DNA of 64,000 bases, taken from the NCBI RefSeq assembly GCF_027924405.1, contig NZ_AP026978.1, positions 2,418,001 through 2,482,000 on the forward strand, in the 5' to 3' direction. Shown piece after piece: positions 28,520 to 54,207 of the stretch. Position 1 is the first letter of the stretch. Each line of letters begins with the position of its first letter. Under the pieces are notes generated by a model. The model was not told where the DNA came from, made no database searches, and saw nothing but the letters and a program-made list of their open reading frames with translations. Made by a program: the position numbers and the translations under genes. This DNA comes from Nocardia sputorum. Lineage in GTDB: Bacteria > Actinomycetota > Actinomycetes > Mycobacteriales > Mycobacteriaceae.

Positions 28520-29164
28520 TCATGGCGGCGGTGATACGGAGCTCGACGATGCCGCGATTTCGGCTTCGGCCCCTGCCGCGATCAGACGGGCGGTCATGAC
28601 GATGACTTCTTGGCGCTCGCCGGTGTCGGCGTCGAGTAGCGCGGCGCGGACCGCGGCCGCGAAACCGACGTTTATCAGAACGAACGCTATCGCGTCCTGG
28701 CCGTTTTCATTCCCGGAGCCGAGTACCCGGATCAGCAGGACTTTCAGTAGCGCGCGCAGGCGTGGTTCGAATTCCGGGAGAGCACTGTTGTAGTAGGCCA
28801 GCCCTCCCGCCAGCGCCCGCACCAGTGGGGCGTTGGCCACCAATTCGTCGGTGATGGACTCGAGGATGGTGATGGCCAGTTCGAGAACGGTACTGCCGGC
28901 GGAATCGGACACGCTGTGGATGAGGTGCTGTTCGATATTTTCCAGCAGCCTTTCCAGCAGTTCGTCGACCATGACCGCACGGTCGGCGAAGTGCCGGTAG
29001 ACGGTATTGACGCTCACCCCGGCCTCGGCGGCGATCCGGTTGGTCGAGGTATTGGCGATCCCGTGTTCCCCGAATAGGTGTGCGGCAGTGTCGAGAATGT
29101 GCTCTCTGGTGGCCTTCGCACGGTCCTGTATCGGACGACGAGTCGTTTTCTTCGCCGGGGTCAC
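28520..29164 (-). CDS. TetR-family regulator, copy 2
   Basis: A 214-residue regulator whose DNA-binding half (TREHILDTAAHLFGEHGIANTSTNRIAAEAGVSVNTVYRHFADR) and ligand half (ELVANAPLVRALAGGLAYYN, KVLLIRVLGSGNENGQDAIAFVLINVGFAAAVRA) are close to copies 1 and 3. The GTG at 29164 was chosen because AGGAG lies 8 bases upstream; an in-frame start at 29296 overlaps copy 3 and adds only arginine-rich sequence. It follows copy 3 on the same strand with an 82-base gap, so the pair looks like a tandem duplication. Confidence 0.88.
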   Translation of the reverse strand: MTPAKKTTRRPIQDRAKATREHILDTAAHLFGEHGIANTSTNRIAAEAGVSVNTVYRHFADRAVMVDELLERLLENIEQHLIHSVSDSAGSTVLELAITILESITDELVANAPLVRALAGGLAYYNSALPEFEPRLRALLKVLLIRVLGSGNENGQDAIAFVLINVGFAAAVRAALLDADTGERQEVIVMTARLIAAGAEAEIAASSSSVSPPP

Positions 29165-29246
29165 GTACCCGCTCCTGTCTGCCGACGCAGGAGGCCCGGC
29201 GTTGTGCGATCTGACGGTGCGTCGATTGCCAAGCGTTCGACCTGCG

Positions 29247-29870
29247 TCATGCCGAGCCTTGCGGGCGTTCGGATTCGATCCACGCGGCGACCGCACGCGC
29301 GGTGACGCTGAGAGCCTGCTGACGTTGCGAGTTGTCGATTTCGAGCACCGACGCGCGGAGCGCCGCCGCGATCCCGGTGTTGATCAACACGATGCTCATG
29401 ATGTCGTATTTGTGGTCGTCGCCCGGTCCGAGCAGCTGGATGACCAGCACCTTGGCGAAAAGGCGTAGACGGAGTTCGAGTTCGGGGATACCGGTGTCAT
29501 AGAACGAGACGCCGCCCGAGAGCGCACGTATCAGCTGGGCGTTGGCCATCAGCTCGTCGGTGATGACCTCCAAGATGGACGCCATCAGCTCTGCGGTGGT
29601 TTGCCCGGTGAGGCCGAAGACATGCTGAGTGAAGCGTTCTTCGGCATTTTCTACGAGCCGCTCGATCAGCTTGTCCACCATGACCGTGCGGTCGGTGAAG
29701 TACCGGTAGACGGTGCCGACGCTCACTCCGGCCTCGGTGGCGATCCGGCTGGTCGAAGTCTCGGCGATCCCGTGTTCTCCGAACAGGCGTGCGGCACTGT
29801 CGAGGATGTGCTCGCGGGTTGCCTTCGCCCGTTCCTGTGCCGGACGACGGGGCCCACTGTTCGGCGGCAT
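29247..29870 (-). CDS. TetR-family regulator, copy 3
   Basis: A 207-residue regulator, third of the paralogous set: TREHILDSAARLFGEHGIAETSTSRIATEAGVSVGTVYRYFTDR in the DNA-binding part, then ELMANAQLIRALSGGVSFYD and KVLVIQLLGPGDDHKYDIMSIVLINTGIAAALRA. The C-terminal half matches copy 1 more closely than copy 2 (LLGPGDD..KYD), so the history is more than one simple doubling. The ATG at 29870 follows AGGAG with 7-base spacing. Upstream lies 500 bases with no gene. Confidence 0.9.
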   Translation of the reverse strand: MPPNSGPRRPAQERAKATREHILDSAARLFGEHGIAETSTSRIATEAGVSVGTVYRYFTDRTVMVDKLIERLVENAEERFTQHVFGLTGQTTAELMASILEVITDELMANAQLIRALSGGVSFYDTGIPELELRLRLFAKVLVIQLLGPGDDHKYDIMSIVLINTGIAAALRASVLEIDNSQRQQALSVTARAVAAWIESERPQGSA

Positions 29871-30378
29871 GAGATACTCCTGCCTGCTGTCGCCGGGAAG
29901 GTCACCGTCGTCAACCCTACGGTCTTGTACCAGCGGCCCGGAACTGCCGCAACGAAGCGACGACTGGGGCGGGTGCTCCGACTCCGCGACGGACAAGTCC
30001 AACCGGAGGGGCACCTGCATAGGGCCAATAATTGCGTGAGGCGGGTGTGGGCCCACAAGCCTCGGTCTGCCCCACCACCCGAGCAGGCTGGATTCCGGCA
30101 ACAGCTTCCCGATTGCCCATCCGTGTCCGGACGCGACTTCACCCACGCGAATCGGCACTCGTTTCCAGATCAGGGCAGGAACGCAAGAGGCCCACTTCCG
30201 GGTGCCCTCAGGTGAGGGTAGTGACCTCCAGAGTGCCGTCGTGGAAGGCGGCTCGCAGCTGCTTCTTATCGAACACCCACGACGATCAAATCGCGGCTGT
30301 ACGGGGCGGGGATGGCGCGGATGAGACCGGTCATGCGATGTCCGGGTGGACTCCGGGGCACAGTAGGGGGTTCGGCCG
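29871..30378. other. Gap with a possible gene-end remnant
   Basis: About 510 bases. On the minus strand 30208-30282 reads SSWVFDKKQLRAAFHDGTLE and then VTTLT and a stop, which looks like the true C-terminus of a protein. The frame is closed just upstream and no start fits, so it may be the tail of a deleted gene. The rest shows nothing I can support. The TetR copy 3 promoter must be at the left edge. Confidence 0.3.
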
Positions 30379-31956
30379 TCAGGAGCGCAGCACTCGCAAC
30401 GGGTCGATCCGCATCAATTCGCCGGCGCGGATCATGCGGTCGATCATGCCGTCGGATGGTATTCCGGCCTGGAAGCACGCGCGGGCTCCGGCCAGGTCAC
30501 CGTGGGCGGCGGCGACCTGCAGCAACTCTCTCGAATGATTGGCGAACAGCCGGGCTGCTGTGCCGCCGTGTTCGGCGGCGTATTCCGCTCGTGCCAGCCA
30601 CGCGTCGAACGTGGGGTACGGGTAGTGCAGGATCATCGGGGCGGTCACCACGCCGCGGCGTCCGGCGTATCCGGTGAACCCGTACCTGTCCACGGGGGTC
30701 ACTGCTGGGCCGAGCCGGACGACGCTGCGGTTGGCCGGCGTGTCGAGGAAAGGCGACCGACCGCTGACCCGGAATACGGTGCAATCCCGGATCGGGTCGG
30801 CCACCGGAGTCGGCGATGGCACCGCTTCGTGTCCGAGGAAGGTCACCTGCCCCGCGCCGGGAATCTGCCAGCGCCGTCGGCCGTCGTCGTAGAAGACTTC
30901 GTCCGGGCCGAGTGGAAGCAACCAGGTCATGCCCGCCGCGCTAGCGGTCGAGACCGCGGCGGCGATGTTGGCGACCTCCTGATCGGTCGGGCCGCCGGGG
31001 GAGGATTCGTGGTCGCATACGACCACGGGATGCCCCTCGGCCAACCTGCTCAGCGCGGCTCGCGCAGCGGTGTCGTCGGTGTAAGCGATGGTCAGATCCA
31101 TTTGGGCGGAATGGAACTGGATCCAGGCGTCCAGGTCGGGACGCCATCGGTCGATGGTGACGCACAGCGCGGTCGGTTCGCCGTTGCCGCTGCCCCGGCC
31201 CGACGTGTCGACGCCGCGGAGGACCCGTGTCGTCAGATCGGTGATGTCGTGGTTGGCCAGATAGTGGCAATACTCGGTGTAGGGATCGACCCCGGTCGCG
31301 CGCGCCGCCGTCAGGTTCGGGCCGCCGACCGGGCGCGTGTGCCGGACCGTCACCGCGTCGATGATGGCGAGCGCGGACGGATGCGGGGCCAGGCGCGGCC
31401 AGTGGAAGTCCAGACCCCACCCGGTCTGGGTGGTGTCGAAGGTCGGTAGGCAGCGCCGGAGGAACTCGCGGCTGAAACACGGCGCCATGATCTCGACGAA
31501 GTTCGTGTATCGCAGGTCGAACCGGCGATCGACCAGCGTTATCTCGTGGGTGAAGTAGCTGTCCTCGGTCAGCGCCGGTTGCGCCAGCGACAGTCGATAG
31601 CATGCCGTGTACTCGAACAGGGCGTTGATGGCATCGGTGTCGCACGCGAGATCGTCGTCGGGCAGCCAGACATAGTCGTAGCGATCGAGCACGTCGGCCA
31701 GGTCGACGGTTAGCGCACGGTGCAGCGCGGGCCATTTCGGACCCTTGTGGTCGATCCGGGTGACATCCTCGGCCCGGTAGCGATCGGGGTCGTCGCCGAA
31801 GTAGCTGATCACCAGATCCCAGGTGCGCGGCAGCCATCCGCTCAGCCACTGCTCGTGCAGCGACGCGTCACCGGCCCGGAGTACGACCAGGTTCCGCCGT
31901 GGTGTCGCGGCCGAGGCGGCGTACTCGGTGCGCGGTCGCAGCAGTGTTCTCGTCAC
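30379..31956 (-). CDS. DUF707/GT92-like putative glycosyltransferase, two domains
   Basis: A 525-residue cytosolic protein. Residues about 20-250 form a DUF707-type GT-A domain: RNLVVLRAGDASLHEQWL, WDLVISYFGDD, the HKGPKWPALHRAL block, then YDYVWLPDDDLACD (acidic DDD at 100-102, the expected metal/nucleotide-sugar site) and WGLDFHWPRL. A second domain (about 265-470) resembles GT92-type transferases (DRWRPDLDAWIQFHSAQMD, TWLLPLGPDEVFYDDGRR). The GTG at 31956 follows AGGAGG with 5-base spacing. The gene starts 9 bases after a GT4 gene stop, so the two form an operon building some glycan; substrate unknown. Confidence 0.8.
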   Translation of the reverse strand: MTRTLLRPRTEYAASAATPRRNLVVLRAGDASLHEQWLSGWLPRTWDLVISYFGDDPDRYRAEDVTRIDHKGPKWPALHRALTVDLADVLDRYDYVWLPDDDLACDTDAINALFEYTACYRLSLAQPALTEDSYFTHEITLVDRRFDLRYTNFVEIMAPCFSREFLRRCLPTFDTTQTGWGLDFHWPRLAPHPSALAIIDAVTVRHTRPVGGPNLTAARATGVDPYTEYCHYLANHDITDLTTRVLRGVDTSGRGSGNGEPTALCVTIDRWRPDLDAWIQFHSAQMDLTIAYTDDTAARAALSRLAEGHPVVVCDHESSPGGPTDQEVANIAAAVSTASAAGMTWLLPLGPDEVFYDDGRRRWQIPGAGQVTFLGHEAVPSPTPVADPIRDCTVFRVSGRSPFLDTPANRSVVRLGPAVTPVDRYGFTGYAGRRGVVTAPMILHYPYPTFDAWLARAEYAAEHGGTAARLFANHSRELLQVAAAHGDLAGARACFQAGIPSDGMIDRMIRAGELMRIDPLRVLRS

Positions 31957-31965
31957 GGTGACCTC

Positions 31966-33045
31966 CTATGTCATGTACCAGCCCTCGCCCCACAACGTCA
32001 GCAGGCGTTCGAAGTACGCCTCGTATTGCGGGGCAACGACATCGGTGGAGAATTTCGAGATCGCGTAGTCGCGAATCGCCCCGTAGTCCAGCTTGTCGAC
32101 CGAGTCGGCGGCCACGCAGAACTCCCGGAGCGTCCGGCAACGGAAACCCTGCGCACCCTGCTGCACGGTCTCGGTGAACACCCCCCAGTCGGTGGTGATC
32201 ACGGGAGTGCCACACAGCATCGCCTCGGCGTGCACCCCGCCGAAGGGCTCGAGGTAGAGCGTCGGCACGAAAACCGCACGGGCCCGGCGCATCAGCTCGC
32301 CCCGGCGGACATGGTCTACGATGCCGACATACTCGACGCACTCGGCGTCGGGGACGTCGCCCGCGCCCGCCACTACCAGCTTCGCCCCGAGCCGCGTGCA
32401 GGTGTCGATCGCGACCTGGATACCTTTGGCCTCCACGACCCGGCCGACGTACAGGAAGTAATCGTCCTTCTCCGCGGAGAACGGGAAGTCGGTGACTTCG
32501 TAGTAATTCGGGATCACGGCGTCGTAGAACTGGCCGCGTGTGCTCATGACACCGGGGACGGTGGTCCGCGAGCCGTAGACGGCGTGCATCCAGGCGTAGC
32601 TTTCGAAGACCCGGTAGTTCGCGAACACGCCGCTGTAGCCGATCCCGTACTCGACGGTCATCAGCTCCGGGAACAGGTCCGCGATGGGCTTCTGGCAGCT
32701 GCCGCCGAGGACCCCGATGAAGTCCCGTTCTCGTTTGCGTGCCGCGATCTCGGTGATGGCTCGCTCGTTCGAGGTGAGCCAGTGCGGGTCGTAGGGGTTC
32801 CACGTGAGATTGATCGGGTCTTTGTACACATCGTTGCCGCCGAACCATTCGGCTTGCTCGGCTTTCGTCACGATGGGAACGAACTCGGTGCACGCGGCGT
32901 CGTTTTCCTCACCGCCGTACAGGAACACTTCGTGCCCACGATTCGTCATCATCTCGGCGAAGCGACGGTTCTTCTGGGTGTACGCGCACGGCTGATAGTG
33001 TTTGGTGGTCTGGGTATTCGGAAAATTGACGATATGAAAACGCAT
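31966..33045 (-). CDS. GT4-family glycosyltransferase
   Basis: A 359-residue GT-B glycosyltransferase. The N-terminal half begins MRFHIVNFPNTQTTKHYQPC. The C-terminal Rossmann half shows DYFLYVGRVVEAKGIQVAI (donor-binding start) and the E-x7-E motif EPFGGVHAEAMLCGTPVI (Glu266, Glu274) that holds the nucleotide sugar. The ATG at 33045 was chosen because the frame upstream is antisense of the ESX substrate gene. It is followed by the DUF707 protein gene, 9 bases apart. Donor and acceptor sugars are unknown. The pair abuts the ESX locus (34 bases from the substrate gene stop), so read-through from that gene is possible. Confidence 0.9.
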   Translation of the reverse strand: MRFHIVNFPNTQTTKHYQPCAYTQKNRRFAEMMTNRGHEVFLYGGEENDAACTEFVPIVTKAEQAEWFGGNDVYKDPINLTWNPYDPHWLTSNERAITEIAARKRERDFIGVLGGSCQKPIADLFPELMTVEYGIGYSGVFANYRVFESYAWMHAVYGSRTTVPGVMSTRGQFYDAVIPNYYEVTDFPFSAEKDDYFLYVGRVVEAKGIQVAIDTCTRLGAKLVVAGAGDVPDAECVEYVGIVDHVRRGELMRRARAVFVPTLYLEPFGGVHAEAMLCGTPVITTDWGVFTETVQQGAQGFRCRTLREFCVAADSVDKLDYGAIRDYAISKFSTDVVAPQYEAYFERLLTLWGEGWYMT

Positions 33046-33079
33046 CGAGCTCACGTTCGTCTCGGGGGCAGAGTGCTGC

Positions 33080-34897
33080 TCAGCGGTCGATGATGGGCCG
33101 GACCGACAGCGGATCGTCGCCCACGGCCTCCTCCAGGTGTTCGGGTCCGTCGAGGTAGGCCGCGCGTTTGCGCTCCTGCTGCTGTTGCCCCTGGCCGCCC
33201 ATACCGCCGCCCATGCCACCCATCGGATACCCGCCCATTCCCATCGGATAGGCACTGCTCAGGGCGGCCGAGTCGCTGATCTCGGCCCGGGTAGTGGTTC
33301 CCTCGGATCGTGGGTTCGGGGATGTGGTGCCCGCCCGGGGGAACAACTTGTCGTCGATGGGGCTGCCCAATCCGGCACCGCCCCCGACCGATCCGCCGGC
33401 TCCGCCGACGCCCGCGGGGTCGACGAACCCGAGTGGTCCTGATGTTCCCCACGGTCCGGACGCACCCCACGGTCCCGAAGCGCCGAGCGCGCCGGACGCA
33501 CCGAACAGTGACCCGGAACTCATGTTCGCCAGCATGTCGGCGAGAGCCGACAGCGGCCCGGTGGCGCCGCTCGTCGAGTTCATGGCGCCGGTGGGTGTCG
33601 TGTTGACCGAGGAGGGATCGACTGACCCGCTGGGTGTCGACGAACGCCAGTTGCCGCTGGGAGACGAGCCGCCACTGCCGAGGCCGGAATGTGAACCCTC
33701 GCCGTTTCCGTTTCCGCCGTTGTTGTTGCCGTTGTTGCTGTTGTTGTTGTTGTTGTTTCCGCCGGTGCCGCCGCCGTTGTTGTTGTTTCCGCCGGTTCCG
33801 CCGGTGCGGGTGATGGGGTCGGTGAAGAGGGGGATCATCGCGGCGAGTTGTGTGAAGCCGTCGACGTAGCCTTTGGCGCCGCCGCTTTCTTTGCCCTCCC
33901 ACCAGGTCTGGACACCGGCGAGTGCTTCGGCGGCTTTCCAGTTGTTGACGTCTTTGACTTCTTTTCCGGTGTAGTGGAACTGGCTGTATCGGGGCAGGTG
34001 TCCCCACGAGTAGAGGTTGAAGTCGCCGGTGGCGGCGAGGACTTCGGCCATGGCATCCATGGCATCCTGCAGGTCGGCGGCCGATTTCAGATAGGACTCG
34101 ATGTAGGCGGTTGCTTTGTCCGCTCCGGCGCCTTGCCAGTGGTTCTCCTTGAAGGTCGGCTGCAGGTTCATGCCGAAGGTCTGAACCGTGGAGTTCCATA
34201 TCTTGGCCAGGGTGTCCCACCGGCCGGCCATCTCCCAGATCTTGCCGTCGTTGCGGTCGAACAGCTCGGCCACGTTCGCGAAGTCGAAATGAATCATCTT
34301 GTAAGCGTTTTCGATGGAGCCCTCGAGGGCCGCCTTGGCCCGGCCGTCGAAACTCACCCCGGACGCCCCCTTGGTCGGAGCAGGCGGACCGTGGGTCCAC
34401 TCACCACCCGAGATCGGGTTGGCATTGCTCACCCGATCGGTCAGCCCGGTGATCCGGCCGGCCAGATCGCCGTCACCGGGCAGCTTGAAACTGTTCTCGT
34501 TCTCGCCCTCGGTGACGGCATACCGCTTGTTCGCGGCAGTGAACGTATTGCCCATGTCGGTCACGGTCGCCTGGTGCTTGCGCAGCACCGACGCCAGTTC
34601 AACCGCCTTGTTCCGGAATTCGGTGAACATCATCTGCATGCTGCCGAGCGTCGTCGTGTGCGGCCGCGCCGCGGGCCACGCCGGCTGGTTGTAGTAGGTC
34701 CAATCCATCAGGGGATTCCACGGCAAAGCCTCGATCGCCTTGATCAGACCCATCGTGTCCACCACCAGATCCTCGCAACCGGTGGTGAGCTTCTTCAGGG
34801 TCGCACCGTCCACATTGACCAGCTGCAGATCACCCTGTTGGGCATTCTTCAGCAAACCAGACCAATCCGTTTGGCCGCTTCCCGTCGCGCCCACCAT
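33080..34897 (-). CDS. PE-PPE-like ESX substrate, copy A (minus-strand partner of inverted repeat)
   Basis: A 605-residue acidic, non-membrane protein. Residues 1-140 form a PE-like helical hairpin ending in the type VII signal YAVTE (Tyr126, Glu130; YxxxE). Residues about 180-330 form a second helical module with WQG (Trp254-Gly256; WxG). A Gly/Asn/Thr-rich low-complexity linker follows (about 370-410), then a Ser/Gly-rich region and a tail KRAAYLDGPEHLEE ... SVRPIIDR like that of the protein at 38277. Residues 1-370 are identical to the divergent copy on the plus strand; the rest differs. No EspG gene follows it. The start follows GGTAGGAGCAC. Family call is by motif and context. Confidence 0.8.
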   Translation of the reverse strand: MVGATGSGQTDWSGLLKNAQQGDLQLVNVDGATLKKLTTGCEDLVVDTMGLIKAIEALPWNPLMDWTYYNQPAWPAARPHTTTLGSMQMMFTEFRNKAVELASVLRKHQATVTDMGNTFTAANKRYAVTEGENENSFKLPGDGDLAGRITGLTDRVSNANPISGGEWTHGPPAPTKGASGVSFDGRAKAALEGSIENAYKMIHFDFANVAELFDRNDGKIWEMAGRWDTLAKIWNSTVQTFGMNLQPTFKENHWQGAGADKATAYIESYLKSAADLQDAMDAMAEVLAATGDFNLYSWGHLPRYSQFHYTGKEVKDVNNWKAAEALAGVQTWWEGKESGGAKGYVDGFTQLAAMIPLFTDPITRTGGTGGNNNNGGGTGGNNNNNNSNNGNNNGGNGNGEGSHSGLGSGGSSPSGNWRSSTPSGSVDPSSVNTTPTGAMNSTSGATGPLSALADMLANMSSGSLFGASGALGASGPWGASGPWGTSGPLGFVDPAGVGGAGGSVGGGAGLGSPIDDKLFPRAGTTSPNPRSEGTTTRAEISDSAALSSAYPMGMGGYPMGGMGGGMGGQGQQQQERKRAAYLDGPEHLEEAVGDDPLSVRPIIDR

Positions 34898-34918
34898 GTG
34901 CTCCTACCGTCGATTTCC
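33787..34918 (-). repeat. Left arm of 1,132-base perfect inverted repeat
   Basis: I compared this arm with 35268-36399 line by line and found no mismatch, including wobble positions. It begins 21 bases before the ATG (the common leader GGAAATCGACGGTAGGAGCAC) and ends within the Gly/Asn linker. Past the end a 15-base indel and about 30 more similar bases follow before divergence. No transposase or terminal repeats of an insertion sequence are present. Confidence 0.97.
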
Positions 34919-35267
34919 GTGCATCGCTTGCGTTTCTAGCATCGCCGTGCCGCGTCGGCCCGCGGCCGCGCAGCCGCGGCTTTGCCCGTACACCCTGCGT
35001 TCACCGTCGACCGCCATCGCGCATGCCGCGCCGGCCCCACGGACGCACCGGACCGCCGCCCGGGATCCCCGCAGTCAAGCAGCGGTCGTCGTGGCGAAAT
35101 ACGTTCCCGGCCAGTACTTCTCCCAATACTGCCGGGGTGCGCCCACGACCGGTGGATCGCCGGCGTCACGCGCCGCGCCGGGTGAACCTCCGGTGACCGA
35201 TCGACGATCGGGACCGTCCGGGAGCGAACGATGAGTTCCGGCCGTGCTTAGGTGTCGGGCAGCGAGT
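34919..35267. other. Spacer of the inverted repeat with divergent promoters
   Basis: A 349-base spacer holding no supported gene; it must contain the promoters of both divergent genes. The two ends are not alike: outside the shared 21-base leader, the -10 regions differ. Crossing-over between the arms would flip only this segment and so exchange the two promoters between genes A and A'. I see no recombinase site or site-specific recombinase gene. Confidence 0.6.
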
Positions 35268-36399
35268 GGAAATCGACGGTAGGAGCACATGGTGGGCGCG
35301 ACGGGAAGCGGCCAAACGGATTGGTCTGGTTTGCTGAAGAATGCCCAACAGGGTGATCTGCAGCTGGTCAATGTGGACGGTGCGACCCTGAAGAAGCTCA
35401 CCACCGGTTGCGAGGATCTGGTGGTGGACACGATGGGTCTGATCAAGGCGATCGAGGCTTTGCCGTGGAATCCCCTGATGGATTGGACCTACTACAACCA
35501 GCCGGCGTGGCCCGCGGCGCGGCCGCACACGACGACGCTCGGCAGCATGCAGATGATGTTCACCGAATTCCGGAACAAGGCGGTTGAACTGGCGTCGGTG
35601 CTGCGCAAGCACCAGGCGACCGTGACCGACATGGGCAATACGTTCACTGCCGCGAACAAGCGGTATGCCGTCACCGAGGGCGAGAACGAGAACAGTTTCA
35701 AGCTGCCCGGTGACGGCGATCTGGCCGGCCGGATCACCGGGCTGACCGATCGGGTGAGCAATGCCAACCCGATCTCGGGTGGTGAGTGGACCCACGGTCC
35801 GCCTGCTCCGACCAAGGGGGCGTCCGGGGTGAGTTTCGACGGCCGGGCCAAGGCGGCCCTCGAGGGCTCCATCGAAAACGCTTACAAGATGATTCATTTC
35901 GACTTCGCGAACGTGGCCGAGCTGTTCGACCGCAACGACGGCAAGATCTGGGAGATGGCCGGCCGGTGGGACACCCTGGCCAAGATATGGAACTCCACGG
36001 TTCAGACCTTCGGCATGAACCTGCAGCCGACCTTCAAGGAGAACCACTGGCAAGGCGCCGGAGCGGACAAAGCAACCGCCTACATCGAGTCCTATCTGAA
36101 ATCGGCCGCCGACCTGCAGGATGCCATGGATGCCATGGCCGAAGTCCTCGCCGCCACCGGCGACTTCAACCTCTACTCGTGGGGACACCTGCCCCGATAC
36201 AGCCAGTTCCACTACACCGGAAAAGAAGTCAAAGACGTCAACAACTGGAAAGCCGCCGAAGCACTCGCCGGTGTCCAGACCTGGTGGGAGGGCAAAGAAA
36301 GCGGCGGCGCCAAAGGCTACGTCGACGGCTTCACACAACTCGCCGCGATGATCCCCCTCTTCACCGACCCCATCACCCGCACCGGCGGAACCGGCGGAA
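35268..36399 (+). repeat. Right arm of 1,132-base perfect inverted repeat
   Basis: Partner of 33787-34918 in inverted orientation; coordinates map as 70186 minus position. It covers the shared leader and codons 1-370 of the plus-strand substrate gene. Confidence 0.97.
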
Positions 36400-37133
36400 C
36401 CGGCGGAACCGGTGGCAACAACAACGGCGGCGGCACCGGCGGAAACCACAACAGCAACAACAGCAACAACAACAGCAACGGCAACAACACCGGCGGAAAA
36501 GGAAACGGCGAAAGCGGAAACAACAACAGCGGAAACAGAAACGGAAACGGCGGAAACGGAAACGGAGGCGGCACCGGAGACGGCAGCGGTAGCGGCGGCG
36601 CCAGTGGTAGCGGGGGTGGCACCGGCGGTAGCGAGTCGCACCCCTCGGGGCCGACCGGGAGCTCGGGCAACGGCACCGGCCCGGCGTTCGGACCGAGCGG
36701 CATGACCGGCGCGGGCACCAGTGGCGCACTGAGCGGTACCGACCTGCTCAGCCTCTTCTCCGAGGTGCTGCAACTCATCTCTTCCGCCATACCGACGCTC
36801 GTGCAACTGGGCAATCAACTCGCCGCTCAGCTCGGTCCCGGACTGCAGGCGCTGGCCAAATCCGTCGAGGACGGGGCGACGACGGTGAAACAGGCGCTGG
36901 CGGATGCGGCCGAGCTCATCGAGGACGAATTCGAGGAGTTCGAGGACCTGGTGGGCCCGCCTGGTGCGAGCGGGCCGGTCACCTTCGCCATCGTGCCGGA
37001 GATCGGCCGGGCCGGCGGCAATCAGCCGGAGTTCTTCGTGGACTTCACCTCGACGAGGTCGACCGACGCGGTCGCCGGCACCGAGGTCACGACGACCGGA
37101 GCACCTGGCATCAGTGCGGAGGGAGACCGATGA
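35289..37133 (+). CDS. PE-PPE-like ESX substrate, copy A' with different C-terminus
   Basis: A 614-residue protein. Its first 370 residues equal the minus-strand copy A: PE-like hairpin, YAVTE at 126-130, WQG at 254-256. Then comes a longer Gly/Asn linker (about 370-455, AAC/AGC-rich at DNA level). The C-terminal domain is new: an amphipathic helical stretch LLSLFSEVLQLISSAIPTL to LADAAELIEDEFEEFEDLV (about 480-560) and a short tail. The KR...SVRP tail of copy A and of the 38277 protein is missing. ATGA overlap joins it to the EspG gene. Likely secreted through the ESX apparatus; role unknown. The swapped end may be a different effector module. Confidence 0.82.
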   Translation: MVGATGSGQTDWSGLLKNAQQGDLQLVNVDGATLKKLTTGCEDLVVDTMGLIKAIEALPWNPLMDWTYYNQPAWPAARPHTTTLGSMQMMFTEFRNKAVELASVLRKHQATVTDMGNTFTAANKRYAVTEGENENSFKLPGDGDLAGRITGLTDRVSNANPISGGEWTHGPPAPTKGASGVSFDGRAKAALEGSIENAYKMIHFDFANVAELFDRNDGKIWEMAGRWDTLAKIWNSTVQTFGMNLQPTFKENHWQGAGADKATAYIESYLKSAADLQDAMDAMAEVLAATGDFNLYSWGHLPRYSQFHYTGKEVKDVNNWKAAEALAGVQTWWEGKESGGAKGYVDGFTQLAAMIPLFTDPITRTGGTGGTGGTGGNNNGGGTGGNHNSNNSNNNSNGNNTGGKGNGESGNNNSGNRNGNGGNGNGGGTGDGSGSGGASGSGGGTGGSESHPSGPTGSSGNGTGPAFGPSGMTGAGTSGALSGTDLLSLFSEVLQLISSAIPTLVQLGNQLAAQLGPGLQALAKSVEDGATTVKQALADAAELIEDEFEEFEDLVGPPGASGPVTFAIVPEIGRAGGNQPEFFVDFTSTRSTDAVAGTEVTTTGAPGISAEGDR

Positions 37134-37957
37134 TCGAGCGAACCTGGCGCCTGACCGGGCTGGAGTACCTGGTGATGCGCGAGCGGCTGGTCGGGCGCAG
37201 GATGAACTGGCCCTTCGCCTACCGCTCCGACATCCATGGGCATTACGACTTCCAGTTCGCCAAAGCCAGGGTCTGGGGCGAGCTGCAGGCGAGCTGGGAT
37301 GCCGCCTTGGCCGATGTGCTGGTGAAATCGCTGCGCGCCGATATCCGCATCGCGCTCCAGGCGGTGGACCACAGCGCGCTCGAGGCTCTGGCTGGCCGAA
37401 AAGTACTGGCTGCGAAGCTATTCAATGACCGAGCGGTCCTTATCGAAGGATTCCACACCACGACCTTCGACAGCCACGACGAGCTCGAGATCACCGAGTG
37501 CACCGCCACCGCGCTGCCACGGCTGATCGTGGAAAAACTGCCGCCGGAACCGGCGGGTACCCAGTCCCGCGTGGAATTGCTGAACTCGGACACCGAAGCC
37601 GGGTTCGACCACTGGCACGGCCGCAACTCCCTCTACGACGAGGGCGATCGGGATATCGACCTGCGCGGTCGCCGATGGCAGGCCGCGCAGAAGGGGTTCG
37701 TGGGCGCCATGCAGATCACGCACGGCCACTCGACTTTCGGTCCGCGCGGACAGGTCACCAGGTGGATCATCTGGGAGGATCATCCCGGTGACGGACGTTA
37801 TCTGATCGACCCGGGGCCGCCGGTCGCCGCGGTCGCCGTCGACGCGGACGGGCTGGGCAAGCTGATCGAGCGGGAGTGCGCGGAACTGATGCTCGTGCGC
37901 GACGACGAGTCGCGGCAGGGCGTCGCGCGGGCGAGTGTCTACGACGATGAGCTCTGA
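37130..37957 (+). CDS. espG: EspG-family ESX chaperone 1
   Basis: A 275-residue cytosolic protein of the EspG family, which binds PE-PPE substrates and keeps them soluble for secretion. Family marks: RTWRLTGLEYLVMRERL at the N-terminus, ERPFAYRS-like segment (NWPFAYRSDIHGHYD), the STFGPRGQVTRWIIWEDHPGDGRYLID strand and a C-terminal helical part. It overlaps the A' substrate by 4 bases (ATGA), strongly suggesting it serves that protein, and is the first of three EspG genes in the locus. Divergence from the others suggests each recognises its own substrate. Confidence 0.9.
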   Translation: MIERTWRLTGLEYLVMRERLVGRRMNWPFAYRSDIHGHYDFQFAKARVWGELQASWDAALADVLVKSLRADIRIALQAVDHSALEALAGRKVLAAKLFNDRAVLIEGFHTTTFDSHDELEITECTATALPRLIVEKLPPEPAGTQSRVELLNSDTEAGFDHWHGRNSLYDEGDRDIDLRGRRWQAAQKGFVGAMQITHGHSTFGPRGQVTRWIIWEDHPGDGRYLIDPGPPVAAVAVDADGLGKLIERECAELMLVRDDESRQGVARASVYDDEL

Positions 37958-38276: not shown

Positions 38277-39902
38277 ATGGCACTCGACCCGAACGTCGCG
38301 GACCCCACGGCATGGTCTGTGCTACCGAATCTGGCCGGCGACGGGCATCTGCGGCTCGAGGCCGGCGCGGCGCACCGCTGCGCCCGATATGTCGACAACA
38401 TGCTCGATCTCGTTGTCGGAGTGCACACCTGGATCGATCAGAACGTTTCGCTGGCGAGCCCGACCATCGCCGCCTCGGTGTCGGGTCAGTTGCTGTGGAC
38501 GGTCTTCAACGTGAAGTTCGGCACCGAGTTGCAGGAGCGGATGGACCGGCATCGCAACATCCTGACCAATATGGGCAACACGTTCGTCTCGGCGGGAAAA
38601 CAGTACGAGCGAACCGAACACGAGTCGACGGTGAGTTTCGACGACCTCTCCTTCCACAGTCCCTCCGGAACCCCACCGCCCGGTACGCCGAAACCGGTGG
38701 CGGTTCCGGTCCATCCGACCAAGCCGGACTCGACAACCCAGTACGACTCGTACGGGTTCGGTCCCGAACTGGGGAGCCAGCTCGGGTGGGAGACCCTATG
38801 GGTGATCGGCAATTCGATCGATGCCCAGGCGGTCGCGACCGCGGCGGGAGTGTGGCAGTGGCTGTCGGAGACCTTGGATACGGGGTTCACCACGCTGCGC
38901 ACGAATATCTCGGGGGTATCGGATCAGTGGGAGGGGGCGGGTGCCGAGGCTGCGATCGCCGCGACGACACACTATGTCGGAGTGTCCCAGCAGCTCACCA
39001 AGGACATGTCCCTGCTCAGTGATTCGTTGCTCTACACCTCGGGCTGGCTCCAGCAGACCAAGCAGTACGCCACACCGCCGACACCGTCCCCACCGCCCGG
39101 CGACAGCATCTCGCAGCAGATGCAGAACGAGCTGAACCTGATCCGGCTGCAGGAGAATTTCCAGACGTACTACTCCGTGAACTACACCAACACCCTGACC
39201 CGCATCGTCGCGCTGCCCCAGCCCGATGACGTGGCGACCCCGGCGCTCGACATCGGCGACGACAACGTCCCGATCGGAACGCCGACCGACGCCCACAACG
39301 ATGACGACACCGGTGGCAACCATGGTGACCCGTCGACCGGCGACGGCGGCGGTCAGCACGGCAGCGACCCCGGCGAGGACGATCCGCTCGGCAACCGTTC
39401 GCCCGGCGGCGACGGCGACGACACCCCGATCGGATCGTCCGACACGGAGACGAATACGCCGAATCTTTCCGAGGCGCTGAAGGATTCCCCCTTCTCCTCG
39501 CCCGCCGACCTCCTCGAGGAGCTGACCTGGCAGGACCCCGGAAACAACCCGCTGCTCGTGAACACCGCGCTGCTGCCCCCGACGAACAACGCCTTCGGCG
39601 GTGTGGGCACGGGCGGGATCAGCGGGCGTGGCGGACTCGGGCGCGCGCTCGCGCTCAGCCCGCTCGCGAACCAGGATCCCAAGCTGTTCCCCCGTGTCAC
39701 GAAGGTACCGGGGGAGAAGCTGATCGGCCGCGCGGGTCCGGGGCTCGGCCGGGATCCGATGATGCCCTTCGGCGGTTATCCCGCACGTCCGGGCACCGAA
39801 GAGCGGGAGAAGAAGCGCTCGGAGCTGCTGAACTCGACCGAACACCTCGACGACGTACTCGGCGGGCCGGGGCGCAGCGTGCGGCCGGTGCTCGATCGGT
39901 GA
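38277..39902 (+). CDS. PE-PPE-like ESX substrate B
   Basis: A 541-residue protein with the same plan as the A/A' proteins. The N-terminal helical hairpin ends in YERTE (Tyr110, Glu114; YxxxE), and a second helical module carries WEG (Trp218-Gly220) in SDQWEGAGAEAA. An Asp/Gly/Pro-rich linker follows (about 340-405), then a Gly-rich part, and the tail KKRSELLNSTEHLDD ... SVRPVLDR matches the tail of copy A. Sequence identity to A is low outside motifs. Start ATG after ACGGAGGG. GTGA overlap links it to a second EspG gene. Secreted effector or surface protein; function unknown. Confidence 0.82.
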   Translation: MALDPNVADPTAWSVLPNLAGDGHLRLEAGAAHRCARYVDNMLDLVVGVHTWIDQNVSLASPTIAASVSGQLLWTVFNVKFGTELQERMDRHRNILTNMGNTFVSAGKQYERTEHESTVSFDDLSFHSPSGTPPPGTPKPVAVPVHPTKPDSTTQYDSYGFGPELGSQLGWETLWVIGNSIDAQAVATAAGVWQWLSETLDTGFTTLRTNISGVSDQWEGAGAEAAIAATTHYVGVSQQLTKDMSLLSDSLLYTSGWLQQTKQYATPPTPSPPPGDSISQQMQNELNLIRLQENFQTYYSVNYTNTLTRIVALPQPDDVATPALDIGDDNVPIGTPTDAHNDDDTGGNHGDPSTGDGGGQHGSDPGEDDPLGNRSPGGDGDDTPIGSSDTETNTPNLSEALKDSPFSSPADLLEELTWQDPGNNPLLVNTALLPPTNNAFGGVGTGGISGRGGLGRALALSPLANQDPKLFPRVTKVPGEKLIGRAGPGLGRDPMMPFGGYPARPGTEEREKKRSELLNSTEHLDDVLGGPGRSVRPVLDR

Positions 39903-40684
39903 GCCGCTCCTGGCTGCTCACCGACATCGAGCTGATCGCGTTGTGGGACAACCTGTTCAAGGATCGGCTGCCCGCGCCGCTGTTCTGCCTGTATCGCGGC
40001 GAGAGTGCTGCGGAGTGGTCGCGCCTGGCCGACGCGGCGCTGGACGGACTCGCCGAGGACGAGGACGGTGCTCTGCACGACGCGCTCGGACGTATCGCGC
40101 ATGCTGACATCCGGGTCACCGTGGCGGCCTTCGATCCACGCAGTCCGAATGATCCGGCCGGCAGGGTGCGCGCGGTGGGCGCACGTCAGGGCGCGGTGGC
40201 CTCGCTGATCCGGCAGCTGCCCGGTGAAACCTGCTGGCACAGTGCCGGATTTCAGGTCAGCACCGGCGCCGCCGAGCGGCTGCCGGGTGCGCTGGTCGGG
40301 GTGCTGCCCGAAGGCGCCGCCGGCCGGCTACCCGACATTCCGCTGGTGACGGTGCCGACGGTTGCCGATGTCGACCATCACTTCGGGCGGTCCCCGGTAT
40401 ACGACAGCTTCGGTGAGGCGGACCGGGCCAGCGCATCGTGGCTGCGCCACCCCGTCGAGCGTCGAGGCCTGATCGAAACCAGTTTGGGGAGATCGATATT
40501 CGGGCCGCGCGGGATAGCCCGGCGCCGCATCGATTGGCGCGATCTGGTCGGCGACGGCCGCTACGCCGTGACGGCCGCCGCCGCACCGATCGCGACGGCC
40601 GTCGACCGTGCGGCACTGGCGGCGCTGGTGGCAGCCGATATCGAGACCGTACGACATACCATGGAGGACGAACGACGTGCGTGA
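39899..40684 (+). CDS. espG: EspG-family ESX chaperone 2
   Basis: A 261-residue EspG-like protein: WLLTDIELIALWDNLFKDRLPAPL at the N-terminus, then a helical and strand-rich core with SLGRSIFGPRGIARRRIDWRDLVGDGRYAV (compare STFGPRG...DHPGDGRYLI in EspG 1). The GTG at 39899 overlaps the stop of substrate B by 4 bases, so it should be the chaperone of that protein. The 3' end overlaps the next gene by 8 bases. Recognition is by motif and order; similarity to mycobacterial EspG is distant. Confidence 0.85.
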   Translation: MSRSWLLTDIELIALWDNLFKDRLPAPLFCLYRGESAAEWSRLADAALDGLAEDEDGALHDALGRIAHADIRVTVAAFDPRSPNDPAGRVRAVGARQGAVASLIRQLPGETCWHSAGFQVSTGAAERLPGALVGVLPEGAAGRLPDIPLVTVPTVADVDHHFGRSPVYDSFGEADRASASWLRHPVERRGLIETSLGRSIFGPRGIARRRIDWRDLVGDGRYAVTAAAAPIATAVDRAALAALVAADIETVRHTMEDERRA

Positions 40685-52134: not shown

Positions 52135-52794
52135 GTGCGGGTAGTGGTGGTGGAAGACGACGCAGGCGTGGCCGACGCGGTCGTCGACGGCCTCCGGGCT
52201 CATGGTTTCGCGACGGTCGACCACCTTTCGCACGGTCTGGACCTGCTGACCGGCCACACCGCCTACGACGCGGTCATCCTCGATCTCGGTCTACCCGACG
52301 TCAACGGGTATCTGGTGCTGCGTCAGCTCCGCAAGGTGAGCGCGGTGCCGGTGATCATGCTTACCGCCGAGGGCGACGAGCTGGCCGTAGTGTCCTGCCT
52401 GCGCGCCGGGGCCGACGACTACATGGTCAAACCGCCCAGAGTCGGGGAACTCGCCGCGCGCTTGGAAGCGGTGGGCCGGCGCCGCGGGGAAGCCGAGTCC
52501 TGTCCCGATGTGGTGGTCACCGGCGACGTCACCGTGAATTTGGCGGCCCGGCACGTCGAGGTGGCCGGGCTGCCGGTGCAGCTGACCCAGAAGGAATTCG
52601 CGGTCGCGCGGGTGCTGGTGGAGCAGGCCGGAGTCGCGGTGCGGCGCGACAAGATCATGGACGAGATCTGGGGGGAGAAGACCGCGTCCACCTCCCGTTC
52701 ACTCGACGTCCACATCGGTGCGCTGCGGGCGAAATTGCAGCGCCCCGGCCTGATCACGACCATTCACGGCTTCGGATACCGCTGGGCCCGGTGA
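52135..52794 (+). CDS. OmpR-family response regulator
   Basis: A 219-residue two-domain regulator: receiver (about 1-118) with acidic pocket Glu7-Asp8-Asp9, phosphorylated Asp50 in VILDLGLPDVNG and the MLTAEGDE and YMVKPP blocks; then a winged-helix DNA-binding domain (about 125-218) ending IHGFGYRWAR. GTG start; GGAAGGA lies upstream. It is followed after 9 bases by its histidine kinase. Its place between eccB/MFS and eccC suggests control of the ESX locus or the pump (inference). Confidence 0.94.
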   Translation: MRVVVVEDDAGVADAVVDGLRAHGFATVDHLSHGLDLLTGHTAYDAVILDLGLPDVNGYLVLRQLRKVSAVPVIMLTAEGDELAVVSCLRAGADDYMVKPPRVGELAARLEAVGRRRGEAESCPDVVVTGDVTVNLAARHVEVAGLPVQLTQKEFAVARVLVEQAGVAVRRDKIMDEIWGEKTASTSRSLDVHIGALRAKLQRPGLITTIHGFGYRWAR

Positions 52795-52803
52795 CATCGC
52801 CCG

Positions 52804-54207
52804 ATGCGAGTTCGGCTGGTGAGCACGTTCACGCTCCTCGCGACGATCTGCATGACCTGCTTTGCCATCGGCATCGGCTACCAGGTCGCGGCGACCCGCA
52901 CCCAGGGCCTGCTCATCGATCGGATCCAGGACGCCAACCGCTTCGCGGCGATGGCCTCGTCGAATCCGGCCGGTCTCGACGACGCCGCGCAGACCTACTA
53001 CGAGCAGACCGGTAACGGAATCCTGGTGATCGCCAACAGCGGTCGGCTCATGGTCGATCTGGGCGTCGATCGTGGCAATGCCCGGGTCGCCGCGGTCTCG
53101 AGAAACGCGCACCAGTTCGTTCCGCCGGACATGCTGTATCCGTGGAGCACCCATCCGATGATCGTGGCGCAACCCATCGGGACCTGGCCGCAAGCCGGCG
53201 GTGTGGTGGTCATCGTCATCTCCACCGCGGCGACCCGCGGCGGAATCGCCGACAGCTGGATCCAGCTCGGCTGTGCGACCGCGACCGCGCTGCTGGTGTT
53301 CTGCGGGGCGGCCCTCGCGGTGTCGGGATGGATTCTGCGCCCGGTGTCGGAGCTGCTGCGCGATGTCGACGCGCTGACCTCCACGCTGCCGGTGGCCGCG
53401 GTCGAGCCGCGGCGGTCCGGCTCGCTCAGGCACGGCCCACCGGAGATCGTCGAACTCGCCACCGGTGTCCAGGCGGTGACCAGAGCGGTCGCGGACCTGG
53501 CCGCCGCGGAGCGTCAGCATGTGGTCGACACCGCCCATTCACTGCGTAATCCGCTGGCCGCGCTGGCCCTCCGCCTGCAGGCGCTGCAGCCGATGATCGC
53601 CCACGACCACGCGGCGGCGACGTTCGTCGGCGTCGTGAGCGAGGTCGACCGGCTCACCGAACTGCTCGACGGATTGCTGAGCGCGGCGGTCGTGGAATCC
53701 GAGGTCGCGCGGCCGGTCGCGGCGTGTGATGCGGTGACGGTGGCCCGGGAGCGGGTCGAGTCGTGGCACGCCGCCTTCGCGCAAGCGGATATGACGCTGA
53801 CCCTGGAGGCGCTCACCGATGTCGCGGCCGCGGCCGTTCCGGCCGGTGTGCTGACGCAGATCCTCGATGTGGCACTGAGCAATTCCGCCCGGTATGCCGG
53901 GCGGGACGCGCAGACCACGATCACCGTCGGCCACGAATGCGAGTCGGTCGTCGTGTCCGTCCGGGACGACGGCGTCGGGGTACCGCCGGACGAACTCGAT
54001 CAGCTGACCACGCGATTCTTCCGCGGAACACAGTCCGGCACCGGCGGTTCCGGTCTCGGGCTGCCGATCGCGGCGACCATGGTGGCCCAGTACGCGGGGC
54101 TGTTCTTCATCGAGGCGGCTGATCCCCGCGGTCTCGTTGTCACGGCGGGATTCCCGTCCGCCGATCGGGCGATGTTGCCGGTAGGTGAACAACTGAAGTC
54201 GCGGTGA
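52804..54207 (+). CDS. Sensor histidine kinase with HAMP domain
   Basis: A 467-residue membrane kinase. The first helix is at about 8-28 and the second at about 157-180, flanking an extracytoplasmic sensor domain of about 125 residues. After a HAMP-like linker, the H-box DTAHSLRNPLAAL has phospho-acceptor His245. The ATPase part has N-box ALSNSARYAG, G1 DDGVGVPP and G2 GTGGSGLGLPIA. Pairs with the response regulator 9 bases upstream. The ligand is unknown. It converges on eccC with a hairpin between. Confidence 0.94.
   Translation: MRVRLVSTFTLLATICMTCFAIGIGYQVAATRTQGLLIDRIQDANRFAAMASSNPAGLDDAAQTYYEQTGNGILVIANSGRLMVDLGVDRGNARVAAVSRNAHQFVPPDMLYPWSTHPMIVAQPIGTWPQAGGVVVIVISTAATRGGIADSWIQLGCATATALLVFCGAALAVSGWILRPVSELLRDVDALTSTLPVAAVEPRRSGSLRHGPPEIVELATGVQAVTRAVADLAAAERQHVVDTAHSLRNPLAALALRLQALQPMIAHDHAAATFVGVVSEVDRLTELLDGLLSAAVVESEVARPVAACDAVTVARERVESWHAAFAQADMTLTLEALTDVAAAAVPAGVLTQILDVALSNSARYAGRDAQTTITVGHECESVVVSVRDDGVGVPPDELDQLTTRFFRGTQSGTGGSGLGLPIAATMVAQYAGLFFIEAADPRGLVVTAGFPSADRAMLPVGEQLKSR

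Follow-up and report, generated by a model that had tools for sequence, protein, structure and literature searches.

Paired ESX substrate genes of Nocardia with concertedly evolving heads on two unrelated tails and a probable inversion of the spacer between them

An inverted repeat shared by two genes for ESX substrate-like proteins

We analysed a 64,000-nucleotide stretch of the Nocardia sputorum genome (contig NZ_AP026978.1, positions 2,418,001 to 2,482,000; hereafter the window), in which two divergent genes for ESX substrate-like proteins, A and B (the latter called A' in an earlier note on this DNA), begin within the two arms of an inverted repeat (Table 1). The two arms match at 1,132 of 1,132 bases around a spacer of 349 bases, and their identity ends exactly at the inner and outer edges given in the table, which bears out the mismatch-free repeat that the earlier note had described. 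Each arm consists of the last 21 bases before the ATG and the first 370 codons, also as described there, and the identity extends to all 187 of 187 fourfold-degenerate sites compared between the arms. A repeat finder returned the pair as arms of 1,200 bases at 98% and reported it as the sole repeat of at least 120 bases in the window. Across the whole genome, a single contig of 7,431,165 bases, the arm sequence matches these two places only, and a plasmid collection searched with the arm gave no match.

Behind the common N-terminal part, hereafter the head, the two proteins differ, in agreement with the earlier description. Protein A ends in KR...DPLSVRPIIDR, like the protein encoded at 38277-39902 (...SVRPVLDR), and protein B ends in a different domain, which is read as helical from its sequence and from weak apolipoprotein-type Pfam matches. 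Besides these genes, Pfam matches in the window include EccA, EccB, an FtsK/SpoIIIE ATPase (EccC-like), EccD, an S8 protease and a two-component system. Because Ecc components, substrates and espG genes all lie in the window, its gene content marks it as an ESX locus that brings its own substrates.

The head carries the YxxxE (Y126-E130) and WxG (W254-x-G256) modules that had been noticed before. Y126, W254 and G256 are invariant in 8 of the 8 rows of alignment A1 and conserved in at least 90% of the 13 rows of alignment A2, and the place of E130 is occupied by E or D in the 8 rows of A1. The Pfam scores of gene B lie under the curated cut-offs (PPE, 15.4 bits against 26; WXG100, 15.2 against 27.3), and at E≤1 some WXG100 match was found in nine and some PPE match in four of the 13 aligned members. 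Searching the PDB sequences with head alignment A2 returned mainly low-complexity matches, none of them relevant to the head, and the same search with the 38277 protein returned only EsxB (E 0.23). The gene context is that of an EspG-dependent PE/PPE-type substrate, with espG-like genes at 37130-37957 and 39899-40684 and the Ecc genes in the same window. From these observations we infer that the head is the EspG-dependent export domain of ESX substrates.

Table 1. Coordinates of the arms, genes and leader elements of the A/B locus within the window
Feature	Position	Strand	Basis or remark
Arm 1: end of leader (21 bases) including the ribosome-binding site, and first 370 codons of gene A	33787..34918	-	no third place in genome
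Arm 2: end of leader (21 bases) and first 370 codons of gene B	35268..36399	+	0/1132 mismatches
Spacer holding both divergent leaders; in reverse orientation to three relatives of inverted layout	34919..35267	.	local alignment scores
Gene A, ESX substrate-like protein of 605 amino acids; A-type tail ending KR...DPLSVRPIIDR	33080..34897	-	open reading frame
Gene B, 614 amino acids; head same as gene A, B-type tail	35289..37133	+	open reading frame
Leader motif GCTAGAAAC, in front of gene A here and before gene B in relatives	34932..34940	-	leader comparison
Leader motif TTAGGTGTC, in front of gene B here and before gene A in relatives	35248..35256	+	leader comparison
Operator-like 11-bp direct repeat GTACACC-N4-GTTCACC, 108 bases before gene A start	34988..35005	+	pattern search
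Operator-like 11-bp direct repeat GGTCACC-N4-GTTCACC, 108 bases before gene B start	35181..35198	-	pattern search
espG-like chaperone gene, overlapping the end of B	37130..37957	+	Pfam PF14011, E 3e-10
Third substrate, 541 amino acids, PPE/WXG100-like (below cut-offs), ending SVRPVLDR	38277..39902	+	sequence, Pfam
Second espG-like gene	39899..40684	+	Pfam PF14011, E 3e-16
GT1, glycosyltransferase family 1 gene downstream of A; start codon unsettled	31969..33045	-	Pfam PF00534
DUF707 gene downstream of GT1, glycosyltransferase-like by place	30379..31956	-	Pfam PF05212, synteny
OmpR-type two-component system: response regulator 52135-52794, histidine kinase 52804-54207	52135..54207	+	Pfam

The A/B pair in other Nocardia genomes

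The head was searched in 150 Nocardia genomes, the window's own (G000) included, and gave matches at E≤0.001 in 98 of them, most being weak or partial. We compared 19 regions of 16 relatives, namely 16 of the first 18 by best E-value (G135 and G006 were left out). The named genomes are MAG RYN_116 (G112), SYP-A9097 (G105), NBC_01503 (G120), alder85J (G111), N. ninae (G081), N. suismassiliense (G127), N. xishanensis (G147), N. lijiangensis (G072), N. tenerifensis (G129), N. arizonensis (G016), N. albiluteola (G007), N. macrotermitis (G073) and N. aurantia (G022). Both copies were found in 12 genomes, counting the window's, with the B copy of N. albiluteola lacking its first codons at a contig edge. 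Kept out of the 12-genome head comparison were N. arizonensis, N. lijiangensis, G102 and N. xishanensis, in which the second copy is split between contigs (G102 additionally containing a run of N), and G077, in which only A was found.

Two locus classes were distinguished. The class of the window has the same neighbour genes throughout and occurs in an inverted layout (N. sputorum, MAG RYN_116, NBC_01503 and SYP-A9097) and in a direct layout in the order A, GT1, DUF707, B, espG (N. ninae, N. suismassiliense and G032). GT1, DUF707 and espG keep their places in both layouts, and in relatives of this class the GT1 next to A is 74-89% and the espG product behind B 64-71% identical to that of the window. 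In the second class (alder85J, N. aurantia, G008, N. albiluteola and N. macrotermitis), B, espG and A follow each other in the same direction and are not separated by GT1 or DUF707. Both classes, with an A/B pair in each, appear to be present in N. albiluteola (L075, L046, L140).

Outside this sample, a profile search at E≤1e-20 found the family in 3 of 401 genomes of the bacterial family, all in one of the 31 genera. Protein searches gave 10 matches with the whole protein, 10 with alignment A1 and 8 with the head region; the low-complexity linkers may have hidden further relatives in these searches, because only the approximately 8000 candidates sharing most words were scored. A contig scan with gene B found no relative, the GT1 gene being the better bait.

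Evidence for concerted evolution of the heads

Within a genome, the nucleotide identity of the two heads is 100% in N. sputorum, N. albiluteola, N. aurantia, G032 and N. macrotermitis and 99.9% in alder85J, and in these six pairs all the fourfold-degenerate sites compared are identical. In the other six genomes it is 88.1% (G008), 87.6% (SYP-A9097), 83.4% (MAG RYN_116), 78.6% (NBC_01503), 77.7% (N. ninae) and 77.4% (N. suismassiliense). Between the 12 genomes the identity of the heads ranges from 33 to 94%. In a tree of 26 head rows, 8 of the 12 genomes have their two copies identical or as sisters, with support of 91/88 for G008; the tree does not resolve those of MAG RYN_116 and NBC_01503, and the heads of N. 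ninae and N. suismassiliense group by paralogue. A topology with all A heads as one clade was rejected (p-AU 9e-8).

The tails behave differently from the heads. A tails and B tails form two separate families of 13 sequences each, from 13 genomes, and among the matches listed none between an A and a B tail is better than E 0.015, these matches being short. Each tail type matches clearly between genomes within the window's class. All members of the second class have a recognisable A end, whereas their B tails are more distant, those of G008, N. macrotermitis and alder85J not reaching E≤1e-8 against the B tail of the window. Since the tails align between species while the heads group by genome, the pair is old and its heads have been homogenised by copying. 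Concerted evolution of the heads by gene conversion is thus strongly supported, though not for every lineage, and the conversion is episodic, because the pairs of N. ninae and N. suismassiliense have stayed unconverted since these species split.

A comparison of the arms, for related strains, had been proposed as a check in the earlier note, and the outcome of the one made here between genomes sorts the ideas put forward there: the arms evolve in concert in 8 of the 12 genomes, with the two paralogue-grouped and two unresolved pairs just named as the remainder. Maintenance of identity by gene conversion found strong support, with N. ninae and N. suismassiliense as exceptions, and a very recent origin by duplication had to be given up with the A/B pair present in 12 Nocardia genomes. 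The proposed cassette with exchangeable ends is better understood as two tails that stay fixed and a head that is copied between them.

The head does not stand out by its conservation: between the window and its same-class relatives it is 36-50% identical, below EspG (64-71%) and GT1 (74-89%); the order is reversed for the A copies of N. ninae and N. suismassiliense, with 97.3% for the head and 96.0% for EspG. The ratio of nonsynonymous to synonymous substitution rates (dN/dS) of the head was approximately 0.7 between N. aurantia (L044) and alder85J (L042), with 0.24-0.44 for the tails and 0.30 for EspG, and 0.05-0.26 in the other three genome pairs. In the N. aurantia and alder85J pair the synonymous rate (dS) of the head is lower than that of the tails and EspG, so the high ratio may be confounded by exchange between species. 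These values give a hint of either fast change or between-species exchange of these heads.

Orientation of the spacer

In all six same-class relatives with both genes on one contig, TTAGGTNTC precedes gene A and GYTAGAAAC precedes gene B, and in the N. sputorum assembly the two are exchanged. Local alignment of the leaders, judged against 500 shuffles (25 at 99%, 28 at maximum), gave the same picture. The window's B leader scored 74, 61, 37, 32 and 32 against five A leaders, 23 against the A leader of NBC_01503, which loses the motif by trimming, and 17-24 against B leaders. For the A leader of the window the scores were 41, 45, 38, 27, 26 and 24 against B leaders and 17-29 against A leaders; the result is clear for the B leader and in part for the A leader. 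When the whole spacer was aligned with those of MAG RYN_116, NBC_01503 and SYP-A9097, the scores were 74, 46 and 61 in reversed and 21, 26 and 20 in unreversed orientation; 300 shuffles per comparison averaged about 19, with maxima of 31-37. Aligned with one another, these three spacers scored 90, 197 and 97 as they stand and 18-25 with one of them reversed.

The draft genome of N. arizonensis likewise has an A-type leader before B and a B-type leader facing the other arm, which is readable over only about 55 bases. Its spacer (L041 72-1440), of about 1.4 kb, is about 1 kb longer than the others. The ancestral assignment is kept in direct layouts where it is readable, with both leaders in N. 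ninae, N. suismassiliense, G032 and N. xishanensis (split contigs); the ancestral B-side leader was also found in N. lijiangensis and N. tenerifensis, the latter with a one-base variant of the A-side motif. The first-leader pattern with two mismatches allowed matched 73 of the 150 genomes, mostly away from these loci, and beyond the known loci added only an unconfirmed contig-edge match with one mismatch in N. tenerifensis. Among the five genomes of inverted layout, the leaders are exchanged in the two with identical readable arms and ancestral in the three with diverged arms; five genomes are too few for a statistical test of this association, which misassembly would also produce.

The spacer in this assembly thus lies reversed relative to that of its relatives, probably by an inversion that would have exchanged the promoters of the two genes. 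As for the promoter swap suggested in the earlier note, the exchanged leaders and the reversed alignment of the spacer speak for it, with the reservation that identical arms also allow a spacer misplaced in assembly. An expression switch that is regulated or toggles frequently was not borne out: the genome shows a single orientation, and the operator-like repeat is present in both leaders.

Contig breaks at the locus in draft genomes

With the GT1 gene as bait, 12 close loci (78% or more, L066-L077) were found in the named collection. Both copies are whole in four of them, and in the other eight the contigs begin in the linker or arm of A (frames read in 6 of the 8). B tails were found in 17 of the 150 genomes, nine of them resolved and seven with a contig ending in the linker or arm before the B tail (G006, G011, N. 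lijiangensis, G096, G098, N. tenerifensis and N. xishanensis); in N. arizonensis the second arm is cut by the contig edge. The two lists overlap, with several species in both. When contigs carrying an A tail and a B tail were paired, both contigs opened at one shared position in the linker or arm in 6 of the 7 pairs, their first letters being identical or almost so, and the stretch common to the two is short in some (N. tenerifensis, N. lijiangensis). N. amamiensis with G011 and N. rhizosphaerihabitans with G096 were paired by sequence alone, their conspecificity being assumed. The sequenced ends show partial identity in some cases, such as 87-89% near both ends in N. xishanensis and 99.6% over 456 bases in N. 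lijiangensis. Four partial proteins consisting of the arm alone were found on contigs 1232-1330 bases long (N. beijingensis, N. salmonicida, NPDC005366 and N. amamiensis). These breaks, in drafts that appear to be short-read assemblies, are indirect signs of collapsed near-identical repeats.

Interpretation and alternative explanations

The reading we favour, with a probability of roughly 0.78, is that an old pair of ESX substrate genes has had its heads homogenised by recombination, with the unrelated tails and the operons behind them staying fixed, and that the spacer has flipped in this genome. Homologous recombination of the RecA type between the two copies, mostly non-reciprocal and thus in the form of conversion, would homogenise the heads, and at least one reciprocal crossover between the inverted arms would probably have flipped the 349-base spacer. 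After such a flip, the leader found before B in relatives would stand in front of A and the glycosyltransferase genes, and the leader found there before A in front of B and espG. An identical head could be recognised by a common EspG chaperone and by the machinery of ESX secretion; the partner copy might recognise it too, in mixed oligomers. Both tails could then leave by a single export route as long as the heads stay alike. As the operator-like repeat is present in both leaders, an inversion is more likely to change the dose of each tail than to silence one. More tentatively, and with a rather low probability, the locus could be a two-tailed cassette, in which recombination between the copies, be they inverted or direct, keeps a fast-changing head identical on two effector tails that share a chaperone and channel, perhaps as a mixed oligomer; where the layout is inverted, this recombination would also periodically exchange the promoters of the two operons (A with the glycosyltransferases, B with espG) and so reset the tail ratio in a population.

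Several observations count against this interpretation or narrow it. The heads of N. ninae and N. suismassiliense show no conversion since these species split, and 6 of the 12 head pairs differ by 12-23%. Three of the six scores of the window's A leader against B leaders (24, 26 and 27) do not exceed the best shuffle of 28, and one of its scores against an A leader (29) does. The orientation of the spacer is taken from one single-contig assembly and one draft, that of N. arizonensis, in both of which the arms are identical where readable, exactly where an assembler can err. The function of the head is read from WXG100 and PPE matches below cut-off, motifs and gene context.

The perfect identity of the arms, silent sites included, would also follow from a recent inverted duplication of one substrate gene with replacement of a tail and no conversion. 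The pair and both its tails recur, however, in 12 Nocardia genomes and in several layouts, so that such a duplication would have to be repeated in each species, always onto the same two tails; this contradiction makes it highly improbable. Strong purifying selection, imposed by an export machinery that presumably must accept both proteins, could by itself keep heads alike, but selection on the protein does not hold silent sites. With 187 of 187 fourfold-degenerate sites identical in N. sputorum, all of those compared in five further genomes, and heads that differ strongly between species, this explanation is contradicted by the data and has a negligible chance of being right.

The strongest competitor concerns the flip and leaves conversion standing: the assembler may have misplaced the 349-base spacer between the identical arms, in which case no promoters were swapped. 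Both genomes with exchanged leaders have identical readable arms, the N. arizonensis contig starting inside the second arm, and the three inverted relatives with diverged heads (79-88%) all show the ancestral orientation. A real crossover needs near-identical arms as well, though, so that the association fits both readings; moreover, the N. sputorum genome is one 7.43-Mb contig, which suggests, without proving, long reads, and these would easily span the whole repeat unit of 2.6 kb. We consider misassembly unlikely on balance, yet it weighs more than any other alternative. Less likely still is a regulated, reversible switch, in which frequent inversion would toggle the expressed tail in a form of phase variation, antigenic or functional. 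In its favour are the identical arms, inverted around both leaders, the evidence of at least one flip and the similar design of known systems, namely the Campylobacter fetus sap locus, in which inversion moves a single promoter, and the slp locus of Lactobacillus acidophilus (PMC7858073). On the other hand, both genes retain a leader in either orientation, with the operator-like repeat in both leaders of N. sputorum, and homogenisation does not need a switch, because the heads are also identical in the direct layout of G032, where crossing-over cannot flip the spacer. An on/off switch at this locus is accordingly treated here as hypothetical. A short invertible promoter segment is a usual form of site-specific invertase systems. 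A dedicated invertase was nevertheless set aside as very improbable, as no recombinase was found among the 17 window proteins scanned with Pfam (not every open reading frame), and the repeats, instead of being short recognition sites, are coding arms of kilobase length that in N. sputorum have their inner edge where the unlike leaders begin.

If an old pair with homogenised heads is the correct reading, the locus would be a clean natural experiment, run repeatedly across a genus, with one domain of a secreted protein made uniform beside another that is left to differ. A first prediction from this reading is that the two tails require one and the same head, which would point to a common interface for export or assembly in type VII secretion. 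Further predictions are that many Nocardia draft assemblies lose or scramble this locus and that its leader region is capable of flipping. The well-supported part of this picture is concerted evolution limited to one domain of ESX substrates.

Comparison with known systems

In Mycobacterium tuberculosis, gene conversion among PE/PPE and esx paralogues proceeds in short tracts (median 101 bp) that diversify antigens (PMC13061034). Substrates of type VII secretion are thus frequent partners of intragenomic gene conversion there as here; at the A/B locus, by contrast, a dedicated pair has an export domain of kilobase scale made identical on unrelated tails, recurrently across a genus and with a probable flip of the spacer. 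The chromosomal inversion at slpA/slpB of L. acidophilus, with slpB silent (PMC7858073), likewise involves genes for surface or secreted proteins arranged so that an inversion changes the gene expressed, and so does the sap locus of C. fetus; S-layer phase variation is treated in PMC3887049. As in such cassettes, inverted homologous arms flank the leaders at the A/B locus. Unlike in slp, where one gene is silent, and sap, with its single moving promoter, both genes have a leader in both orientations, and in the present orientation both leaders include the operator-like repeat.

In EspB, a single polypeptide has a PE-PPE fold together with WxG and YxxxD/E motifs, and the protein uses EspK, independently of EspG1 (PMC9811218). 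The A and B proteins are likewise single chains with YxxxE, WxG and a long tail; unlike EspB, the A/B pair sits with espG genes. As for the evolutionary pattern only, mammalian SIGLEC11 and SIGLEC16 are analogous receptors, their extracellular domain being kept alike by gene conversion where one receptor inhibits and the other activates (PMC5701461). In the titles and abstract openings of the papers listed on PPE or type VII gene conversion, Nocardia ESX or EspG and paralogue concerted evolution, and of those listed on Nocardia with gene conversion or inverted repeats, no description of the A/B locus was found, subscription journals lying mostly outside this search.

Operator-like repeat, candidate regulator and neighbouring genes

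The pattern GKWCACC-N4-GTTMACC was found on the opposite strand, 106-112 bases before the start, in 11 of the 15 gene copies of the window's class (both genes of N. sputorum, G032, MAG RYN_116 and N. suismassiliense, B of N. arizonensis and N. ninae, and A of SYP-A9097). It is missing from both genes of NBC_01503, A of N. ninae and B of SYP-A9097, and from all 11 copies of the second class, the B of N. albiluteola having no upstream sequence. As the pattern was drawn from these leaders, its rarity, not its presence there, constitutes the test: the window holds 2 matches against 0.11 expected at up to one mismatch, and the genome 3 matches against 1 for a reversed control pattern. The sole other perfect match (L200 1501-1518, G000:C1:5496121) lies about 400 bases upstream of a secreted-looking open reading frame. 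The repeat resembles the Streptomyces PHO box (GTTCACC), with a spacing like that of OmpR-type regulator sites (PMC9019756), and also the MtrA site (PMC5650626), and we claim identity with neither.

The two-component system of the window is a candidate regulator that may bind this repeat. A linked response regulator, 77-83% identical and about 17-33 kb away, is present in 7 of 12 genomes (NBC_01503, SYP-A9097, N. ninae, N. suismassiliense, G032, N. arizonensis and N. xishanensis). N. albiluteola has one of 72% identity on another contig, N. aurantia, alder85J and N. macrotermitis reach 48-59% at best, and MAG RYN_116, whose locus is at a contig edge, 40% at best.

GT1 and DUF707 (30379-33099, minus strand) follow gene A in both layouts of the window's class, and the linkers of A and B are long and rich in Gly, Asn, Ser and Thr; glycosylation of the substrates is therefore conceivable. 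The SVRP(I/V)(I/L)DR end common to A (33080-33200, minus strand) and the 38277 substrate (39800-39902) is perhaps a common C-terminal signal. Ends like the A tail were seen at further places in five Nocardia genomes searched. Farther along, at 28520-30158 on the minus strand, two adjacent genes that look TetR-like have very similar N-terminal parts, by reading of their open reading frames.

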